A DNA stretch of 64,000 nucleotides from Bacillus sp. SB49 (GTDB taxonomy: Bacteria; Bacillota; Bacilli; Bacillales; Halobacillaceae): the NCBI RefSeq assembly GCF_000469135.2, contig NZ_CP048117.1, forward strand, positions 1,835,501-1,899,500, read 5' to 3'. Every line of letters starts with the position of its first letter. Positions within the stretch are counted from its first letter, which is position 1. The notes under the pieces were generated by a model that saw nothing but the letters and a program-made list of their open reading frames with translations, did no database searches and was not told the DNA's origin. The translations under genes were made by a program, and so were the position numbers. This document shows positions 45,895-48,450 of the stretch, in pieces.

Positions 45895-45921
45895 GTTTAA
45901 GGGATAGACCGGTTGGGGTAT
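45895..45921 (+). promoter_or_regulatory. Sigma-B-type promoter upstream of sqdB
   Basis: GTTTAA (45895-45900), 15 bp, GGGTAT (45916-45921): both boxes match the general-stress sigma-B consensus exactly. It predicts a start near 45929 and a ~195-nt leader before sqdB. The leader has no other ORF with a ribosome site. Confidence 0.6.
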
Positions 45922-46124
45922 TATAATTCTCAGGCATATAAACAGCATGGTCTTTTATTTCTTACATAGTTCACAAATACTTAGCCAGTAATTAATTGTT
46001 TCAAAATTGAATTAATGGTAAAGTCAAAAACGTAGAGACCTTAGGTGCACATGAAAGGTGCATCGGAAGGTTTACTGCGCAAAAAGGAATACGAGTATGC
46101 TAGATGTTACTAGGAGGTAGGATT

Positions 46125-47273
46125 ATGAGAATTATTGTAGCAGGGGGAGACGGTTTTTGCGGTTGGCCGACAGCATTATACCTATCCAAGCAAGGTCATG
46201 ATGTAACCATCGTAGATAATTTAGTACGCAGGAAATATGACGATGAGCTGCGGTCCAATTCCGTGACACCAATCGCCACTCTGGAAGAACGGGTAGCGAA
46301 GTGGAAAGAAGTGACCGGTAAAGAAATCAAGACATTTATCGGGGATTTGAATCATTACGATTTCCTGAGCGAAGTATTCCGTCAGACAGAGCCGGAAGCT
46401 TTTGTGCATTTCGCCGAACAGCGGTCCGCGCCTTATTCCATGATTGACCGCGAACATGCGGTCTATACTCAATCAAACAATGTCATCGGTAACTTAAACG
46501 TGCTGTATGCCATTAAAGAATTTGCACCGGAGTGCCATCTGATTAAACTCGGCACGATGGGTGAATACGGAACACCGAATATTGATATAGAAGAAGGATA
46601 TATTGAAATAGAACATAAAGGACGTAAAGACCTGCTTCCTTACCCGAAACAGCCGGGTTCTTTCTATCACTTGTCCAAAGTGCACGACAGCCATAACATC
46701 ATGTTTGCGTGTAAGATTTGGGGAATCCGTGCGACAGACTTGAATCAGGGCATTGTTTACGGTCTACATACCAAGGAGACGGCGCTTGATCCGCTGCTTG
46801 TGAACCGAGTAGACTATGACGGCGTCTTCGGTACGGCTCTTAACCGTTTTATCAACCAGGCAGCAATTGGTCATGATTTGACGGTGTATGGAAGCGGAGG
46901 GCAGACAAGGGCTTTCCTTAACATCGAGGATACCGTCCGCTGTGTGGAAATTGCAGCAGAGAACCCTGCTGACAAAGGAGAATTCCGTGTATTCAACCAG
47001 TTCACAGAGTGGTTTTCCGTCATGGAGCTTGCGGAACGTGTCCAGCAGATAGCGAAAGAAGAAGGACTGAACACAAATGTCCAACAGATTGAAAACCCGC
47101 GAATAGAGAATGAAGACCATTATTACAATGCGGTGAATACGAAACTGAAAGACTTGGGTCTGGAACCGCACCTCCTGACAGATGATGTCATCCGGGGCAT
47201 TCTTAAAACAGCGATCGAACATAAAGACCGTATTATTAAAGAGAACGTATTGCCGTCCATTACTTGGAAGTAG
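46125..47273 (+). CDS. sqdB: UDP-sulfoquinovose synthase (SqdB/SQD1)
   Basis: 382 residues of the extended short-chain dehydrogenase family. It makes UDP-sulfoquinovose from UDP-glucose and sulfite. The NAD motif is [15 protein letters not shown] (7-21), and the SQD1-specific segments are [32 protein letters not shown] and [13 protein letters not shown]. The catalytic triad T144, Y181, K185 lines up with Arabidopsis SQD1 (T145, Y182, K186, from memory). The ATG follows AGGAGGTAGG. The sqdX glycosyltransferase is 13 nt downstream. Confidence 0.94.
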
Positions 47274-47286
47274 GGAGTTTTCCGCT

Positions 47287-48450
47287 TTGAAAATCGCCAT
47301 TATTACCGAAACATTCCTTCCATCCACGGATGGAGTCGTAACAAGATTAAAGGAAGCAATCAAATACCTGATCAACCAAGAGCATGAAGTCATAGTCATT
47401 GCTCCGGATCTTGGAGTGACAGAATATGAAGGGGCGATTGTCGAAGGGGTTAAACCGACAACCATGCCTTTTTACAGATCCAAAGAGTTTTCGCTCCCGC
47501 AGCGACGCGTAAAGGATCTGCTTATCAAACATGACCCAGACCTCGTCCACGTCGTTAATCCGGCCCTCGTCGGGGTCTCAGGGGTGTATTATGCGGACAA
47601 ATTAAACTACCCGTTGATTGCATCCTATCATACCCATGTACCGAAGTATCTTGATTATTACAGGCTTTATCCATTCAAGCCGCTCGTATGGTGGTATTTC
47701 AGGAAGCTGCACAACTATGCAGATGTCAATTTATGTACATCGAGAGCGATCAAACAGGAGCTTGACGATAAGAAGTTCCATAACGTAAGTGTTTGGGATC
47801 GGGGGGTGGCTGTGGATCACTATCATCCGCGGCATCGGACTTCTGCGATGAGAGAAAGGCTTTCCGACGGTAATACGGAGAATAAGCTTCTTGTTTTCGT
47901 AGGGCGACTGGCGCCTGAGAAGGAGATCCATAAGCTGAAGCCTTTACTTGAATCAAGGGACGATATATCGCTTGCCATCGTAGGGGAAGGGCCTGTCAAA
48001 GACCAGCTGGAAAAGACGTTTGAAGGGACCAATACGGTGTTTACAGGGTTGCTCCACGGAGAGGAACTTGCTCAAGCGTTTGCTTCATCGGATGCTTTAA
48101 TTTTCCCATCTGTAACAGAGACGCTCGGGTTGGTTATTCTTGAAGCGATGGCTTCCGGGCTGCCGGTTGTTGCAGCGAAGAGCGGGCCTACCATGGAACA
48201 GGTAGAAGACGGCAGAACAGGCCTGCTGTTTGAAAATGAGAATACAGAAAGCATGATCGCTGCTATTAAGCGCCTGGAAGATGATGATCTGTATGAAGAA
48301 CTGTGCAGCAACGCAAGAGCTGAAGCAGAGAAATACAGCTGGCAGAAACCATCGGAACAAATTCTTGATTACTATTATGAAACGATAAAAGTTTTCAACG
48401 AGAACGAAAGTCCATCGTCCAAAAAAACCAAAATGAAAGTCACAGAGTAA
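47287..48450 (+). CDS. sqdX: Sulfoquinovosyl-diacylglycerol synthase (SqdX/SQD2-type glycosyltransferase)
   Basis: 387 residues, TTG start after TAGGGAG. It is a GT-B fold, family GT4. SQD2-like blocks are KIAIITETFLPSTDGVV, SYHTHVPKYLDYYR, VWDRGVAVDHYHPRHR (compare LWNKGVDSESFNPRFR in plant SQD2, from memory), FVGRLAPEKE and the donor loop FPSVTETLGLVILEAMASGLPVV. It transfers sulfoquinovose from UDP to diacylglycerol, giving the anionic sulfolipid SQDG in the membrane. The TAA lies in the terminator stem. Confidence 0.9.
   Translation: MKIAIITETFLPSTDGVVTRLKEAIKYLINQEHEVIVIAPDLGVTEYEGAIVEGVKPTTMPFYRSKEFSLPQRRVKDLLIKHDPDLVHVVNPALVGVSGVYYADKLNYPLIASYHTHVPKYLDYYRLYPFKPLVWWYFRKLHNYADVNLCTSRAIKQELDDKKFHNVSVWDRGVAVDHYHPRHRTSAMRERLSDGNTENKLLVFVGRLAPEKEIHKLKPLLESRDDISLAIVGEGPVKDQLEKTFEGTNTVFTGLLHGEELAQAFASSDALIFPSVTETLGLVILEAMASGLPVVAAKSGPTMEQVEDGRTGLLFENENTESMIAAIKRLEDDDLYEELCSNARAEAEKYSWQKPSEQILDYYYETIKVFNENESPSSKKTKMKVTE

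Follow-up and report, generated by a model that had tools for sequence, protein, structure and literature searches.

The window, the 64,000-nucleotide stretch of DNA analysed here, carries a gene for a probable UDP-sulfoquinovose synthase (sqdB) followed by a gene for a glycosyltransferase (sqdX), with two promoter-like elements (P1 and P2) in front of the pair and a hairpin at either end:

45827-45872, + strand: intrinsic terminator hairpin after a floT-like gene (MFE -27.1 kcal/mol, z -7.0 over 200 shuffles), with a T-rich stretch after it
45895-45900, + strand: P1 -35 element, GTTTAA, sigma-B type (GTTT form in 11/25 Halobacillus and 3/5 Thalassobacillus)
45916-45921, + strand: P1 -10 element, GGGTAT, sigma-B type, after a 15-nt spacer; start predicted near 45928
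45996-46001, + strand: P2 -35 element, TTGTTT, probably sigma-A (24/25 Halobacillus with the 17-nt spacer)
46016-46024, + strand: P2 extended -10 element, TGG TAAAGT, with a predicted start near 46031; in three species without sqdB it still precedes sqdX
46125-47273, + strand: sqdB, predicted UDP-sulfoquinovose synthase of 382 aa (1qrr, E 1.3e-170; NF041015, 494 bits)
47287-48450, + strand: sqdX, GT4 glycosyltransferase of 387 aa with a TTG start (Pfam GT4 domains; linkage to sqdB)
48436-48464, no strand assigned: hairpin over the end of sqdX, a probable terminator (listed by the scan on the - strand only; TTTCATT follows on the + strand)

SqdB and its known relatives

We place the start of sqdB at the ATG at 46125 because a ribosome site, AGGAGGT, lies at 46112-46118 with a gap of 6 nt to that codon; the longer start at 46104 comes only from a mechanical listing of open reading frames. 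The protein aligns at full length with Arabidopsis SQD1 (1qrr; 570.7 bits, residues 2-382 of 382), and 242 of 381 residues are identical. Its glycine-rich NAD motif, GGDGFCGW, stands at residue 7, and T144, Y181 and K185 line up with the corresponding residues of SQD1 in 1qrr and 1i24 (1i2b has A at the threonine position). T-Y-K is the catalytic triad of SqdB, and an earlier note on this DNA had rightly described it as intact; threonine, tyrosine and lysine are kept in all 80 sqdB loci of our comparison set (80 retained out of 205 encoding a relative), 70 by a strict pattern and the other 10 by eye. From this likeness we predict that SqdB would make UDP-sulfoquinovose from UDP-glucose and sulfite. 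The equivalog profile for this enzyme, NF041015 (UDPsulfquin_syn), scores the window protein at 494.2 bits, below its curated cut-off of 575; in the same profile search that cut-off was reached by none of 44 family genomes and passed by 1 of 14 control genomes, and SqdB of the window type was found in 41 of the 44 at 487-501 bits. The window protein therefore shares with SQD1 (1qrr, 1i24) its full length, the triad and the NAD-binding motif GGDGxCGW, and it differs from the Arabidopsis enzyme in being bacterial, in being encoded in an operon with a GT4 glycosyltransferase and in falling short of the NF041015 cut-off.

By sequence the window is Halobacillus DNA, its SqdB sharing 90-94% identity with that of 21 records titled Halobacillus; the genome is a single contig of 3.77 Mb. 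The same gene pair is on record in another non-phototrophic member of the Bacillota, Bacillus coahuilensis, which according to the available text of PMC4744853 has sqd1 and sqdX and membranes that held sulfolipids (data not shown there). Phosphate sparing was proposed in that paper, as the earlier note had stated; its available text does not mention a sigma-B promoter, whereas the window has P1. In the same genus as the window, the head groups of phospholipids and sulfoglycolipids were studied in H. halophilus at high salt (Lopalco 2013, as cited in the available part of PMC6158405); unlike the window, L025, a record titled H. halophilus AcN7-4, shows P2 with no P1 and no upstream floT match. 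The SQDG pathway, which had been presented as notable in a Firmicute, is thus ordinary here, known from relatives whose sulfolipids are in print and common in the family.

The region upstream of sqdB

P1 reads GTTTAA-15-GGGTAT at 45895-45921, exactly as had been noted. Both hexamers equal the consensus of Bacillus subtilis sigma-B promoters, and the element also fits the wider Bacillales pattern KTTTW-N12-N17-GGGWAW, for which the rsbV promoter serves as the reference; its spacer of 15 is one above the reported optimum of 14 (PMC9847131, available text; Halobacillus has 0 occurrences in the main text as available). Taken alone, this match is not significant, since the exact pattern GTTTAA-N13-15-GGGTAT occurs twice in the 3.77 Mb genome, at the level of chance (1.9 expected from base composition; 1 in a reversed-pattern control). 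A looser sigma-B pattern has 241 matches in the genome, where its reversed control has 134, and is uninformative on any single site. The only other exact site (G000:C1:401012-401036; L121:1013-1037) lies about 40 nt before an open reading frame of 94 aa whose translation reads as glutaredoxin-like.

It is the comparison across species that counters a chance match, as the genome counts do not exclude one. In upstream regions of 300 nt, set against 200 rounds of shuffling, a site with at least 11 of 12 consensus positions is present in 12 of 22 Halobacillus (shuffle mean 0.86, maximum 3) and in 3 of 5 Thalassobacillus (shuffle mean 0.29), and in the other loci it stands at chance (1 of 54; shuffle mean 1.15). 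Of the 12 Halobacillus sites, that of L029 (GGTTAA-N14) is weak, and a number of the other regions are nearly identical among themselves (L011, L012, L014, L015 and L017; also L019 and L021), so the independent support amounts to about six lineages, not twelve. Among 7 representatives identity is complete at GTTT, GGG and A, 35% in the spacer and 38-43% in the flanks; as these were drawn from regions already having at least 11 of 12 positions and a 15-nt spacer (leaving out L019 and L021, spacer 14), the identity of the core stems in part from the selection itself, and the informative figure is the low identity of the spacer. A tree of 31 SqdX proteins needs 4 changes to account for the presence of P1, compared with 10.6 for shuffled labels. 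The recurrence in Thalassobacillus means that P1 is old or arose twice, and its absence from other Halobacillus that it is dispensable.

Between P1 and sqdB lies P2, TTGTTT-N17-TAAAGT with TGG preceding the -10 hexamer, which is absent from the earlier note. It matches the sigma-A consensus TTGACA-N16-18-TATAAT at 7 of 12 positions, under the threshold of 9, and was therefore not listed by our consensus scan. Despite this low match, the extended TGn and the conservation lead us to read P2 as probably a sigma-A extended -10 promoter. It is found in 24 of 25 Halobacillus, among them the three without sqdB, in which it precedes sqdX; the one that differs, L029, carries TTGAGT as its -35 hexamer. 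In other genera it is present in 0 of 59 loci. Since conservation continues downstream of the -10 element in an alignment of 22 sequences, P2 may itself be, or include, a site for a regulator. With P2 in 24 of the 25 Halobacillus and P1 in 11, sigma-B is not, on this count, the main conserved input. What had been claimed as a sigma-B promoter is thus likely a real site, but one less conserved than P2 and missing from much of the genus, and we regard it as a plausible, lineage-restricted input. Control of sulfolipid genes by sigma-B had been called undescribed, which agrees with the open-access literature, where none was found among the matches listed (most subscription papers lie outside this body of text); the sigma-B link to sulfolipid is new in this sense.

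P1 stands just downstream of the floT terminator, which separates floT from the sqd operon, and our scan lists no + strand terminator-like site in the interval from P1 to sqdB. Two further candidates in this region were rejected. A proximal -10 element (P3), sought 25-75 nt before the ATG, is weak: at least 5 of 6 positions of TATAAT are matched in 65 of 80 loci (shuffle mean 47, sd 4.2), and the best match in the window is 3 of 6, so P3 is absent there. A structured RNA in the sqd leader was set aside on finding 0 Rfam matches at the gathering threshold over 45800-48800.

If P1 were an unused relic or a chance site, with sqdBX transcribed from P2 alone, one would expect much of what is seen: conservation of P2 far above that of P1, no full P1 in 14 of 25 Halobacillus (the AcN7-4 record among them) and consensus sites at chance level genome-wide. 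We consider this unlikely, given that P1 sites are found in 12 of 22 Halobacillus where shuffling gives 0.86, that they align in place in the 22-sequence alignment while their spacers differ, and that they return in 3 of 5 Thalassobacillus. There is likewise a limited chance that the operon is mainly phosphate sparing and phosphate controlled, as proposed for Bacillus coahuilensis in the available text of PMC4744853; no conserved TTAACA-like repeat pair was seen by eye in the 22-sequence alignment, and such a role would be compatible with control by sigma-B. The explanation that we judge likely is that sqdB and sqdX form an operon of two genes that would serve the synthesis of the membrane lipid SQDG, in which P2 would provide the core transcription input genus-wide and P1, about 100 bp upstream of it, would in some species add transcription once stress frees sigma-B.

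SqdX and a second type of SqdB

The TTG start of sqdX lies 13 nt past the stop codon of sqdB, and sqdX follows sqdB directly in 80 of 80 loci (the 80 kept of 205). Its product has the GT4 domains PF13439, PF00534 and PF13692 above cut-off, its nearest solved structures are of the PimA type, and among NCBIfam models it comes closest to N-acetylglucosaminyl phosphatidylglycerol synthase, whose cut-off of 480 lies far above the 171.9 bits scored. SqdX is predicted to transfer sulfoquinovose to diacylglycerol, and the pair as a whole fits the SQDG synthesis claimed for it before, where the comparison for SqdX consists of the GT4 domains and the linkage.

Three Halobacillus genomes (G016, G017 and G019) are without SqdB of the window type and encode instead a divergent SqdB, at 335-339 bits, which is 43% identical to that of the window and sits at a different locus. 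They retain sqdX at 84-85% identity in its ancestral position behind acs and floT, with 15-27 nt of the 3' end of sqdB as a remnant. This replacement of sqdB is a new point, and it offers a natural test linking SqdX to UDP-sulfoquinovose: with sqdB lost, sqdX kept and a second SqdB elsewhere, SqdX appears tied to that substrate. No sigma-B site of at least 10/12 stands ahead of the second SqdB type or of sqdX in these three species, and none of at least 11/12 ahead of sqdX in seven other genomes (L139-L145). The second SqdB type in the three Halobacillus (L122-L124, L128-L130) is 410-412 aa long, and its neighbours, going by their translations, are presumably genes for a TraB-like protein and an adenine deaminase.

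The association extends beyond Halobacillus. A draw of 249 genomes from the order contained 55 with one SqdB-type match each (E 1e-40 or better): in 40 it is of the window type, 44-49% identical to the second type, and in the other 15 it is the second type itself. We searched 40 of the 249 for SqdX, namely 13 carrying the second type (the remaining 2 of those 15 were covered by an earlier SqdX search), 12 of the 40 with the first type and the first listed 15 of the 194 without SqdB. A glycosyltransferase at least 52% identical to SqdX is encoded in all 25 of the tested SqdB-bearing genomes (second type 13/13, first type 12/12) and in 0 of the 15 tested SqdB-lacking ones, 6 of which have a GT4 relative at 32-37%. 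Of the 13 genomes with the second type, 6 have it 22-54 nt upstream of sqdX and 7 have it detached, so that SqdX, beside or co-occurring with both, goes with UDP-sulfoquinovose synthase of either type. In one of the genomes (L145, from G224) sqdX is present as a tandem pair, 69% and 65% identical to sqdX of the window, and the second SqdB type is encoded on a different contig. A search of plasmids with SqdX returned distant GT4 proteins, 33% identical at best among the matches listed.

Because GT4 is a broad family, with the best NCBIfam match so far under its cut-off and the best solved relatives of the PimA type, the acceptor could be something other than diacylglycerol, either a cell-wall glycan or another glycolipid. 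Against this stand the co-occurrence of SqdX with SqdB, the sulfolipids reported in relatives and the action on lipids of the nearest named relatives, and we think a different acceptor quite improbable.

The sigma-B system and a stress role for sulfolipid

The genome encodes both the sigma factor and its anti-sigma factor: SigB (TIGR02941) at 439.7 bits over a cut-off of 315 and RsbW at 230.1 bits over 145, together with an RsbV-type antagonist at 95.9 bits. The neighbours of sigB read as rsbR, S, T, U, V and X by their order and translations; at 1e-20 only the RsbV type had an NCBIfam match, and RsbS, T, U and X had none. Upstream of the rsbV-like gene is GTTTAA-N14-GGGTAC. As sigma-B and sigma-F recognition overlap and Sigma70 region 2 is matched 20 times in the genome, P1 might be read by another sigma factor, such as sporulation sigma-F, and the lipid be made in development rather than under stress, which we hold to be very improbable because GTTTAA/GGGTAT is the published sigma-B consensus and a site of the same form precedes the genome's own rsbV-like gene.

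Both substrates of SqdB are plausible in this organism, since the genome has a nitrite/sulfite reductase-type gene and three galU/gtaB genes above the family cut-off (G000:C1:2788014, 3174753 and 3513256). In B. subtilis gtaB is sigma-B-induced (PMC9847131, available text). The idea that the UDP-glucose supply is co-regulated by sigma-B was rejected here for want of a good site at any gtaB copy: the three upstream regions of about 400 bases contain between them a single 10/12 match (16-nt spacer), before one copy, and the remaining two have none.

Taking these results together, we lean towards a picture in which some Halobacillus and Thalassobacillus have sulfolipid synthesis wired to sigma-B in addition to a genus-wide core promoter, and in which three Halobacillus species swapped sqdB for the second type at a distant locus and kept sqdX, neither locus having a sigma-B site. 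The predicted product is a phosphate-free sulfur lipid for the membrane of a salt-loving bacterium; if this reading is correct, membrane sulfolipid in halophilic Bacillota would be part of the stress response, and not just phosphate-saving or linked to photosynthesis. As the species of this one genus differ cleanly (P1 present, P1 absent, sqdB replaced), a comparison of sister species can test the stress control.

Two further features flank the operon. The floT-like gene (44325-45827) lies between acs and sqdB in part of Halobacillus only; it is present in the window, in 11 of 21 Halobacillus loci (L018 being too short upstream) and in L128-L130, and it accompanies the GTTT form of P1 in each of the 11 Halobacillus that have that form. 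A repeat with the core ACTTAGTAGCAACTCCGAA is interspersed, in both orientations, around the sqdX end and past it, at 48474-48517, 48573-48616, 51714-51757 and 54394-54437, and stretches similar to it are found downstream of sqdX in L128-L130.
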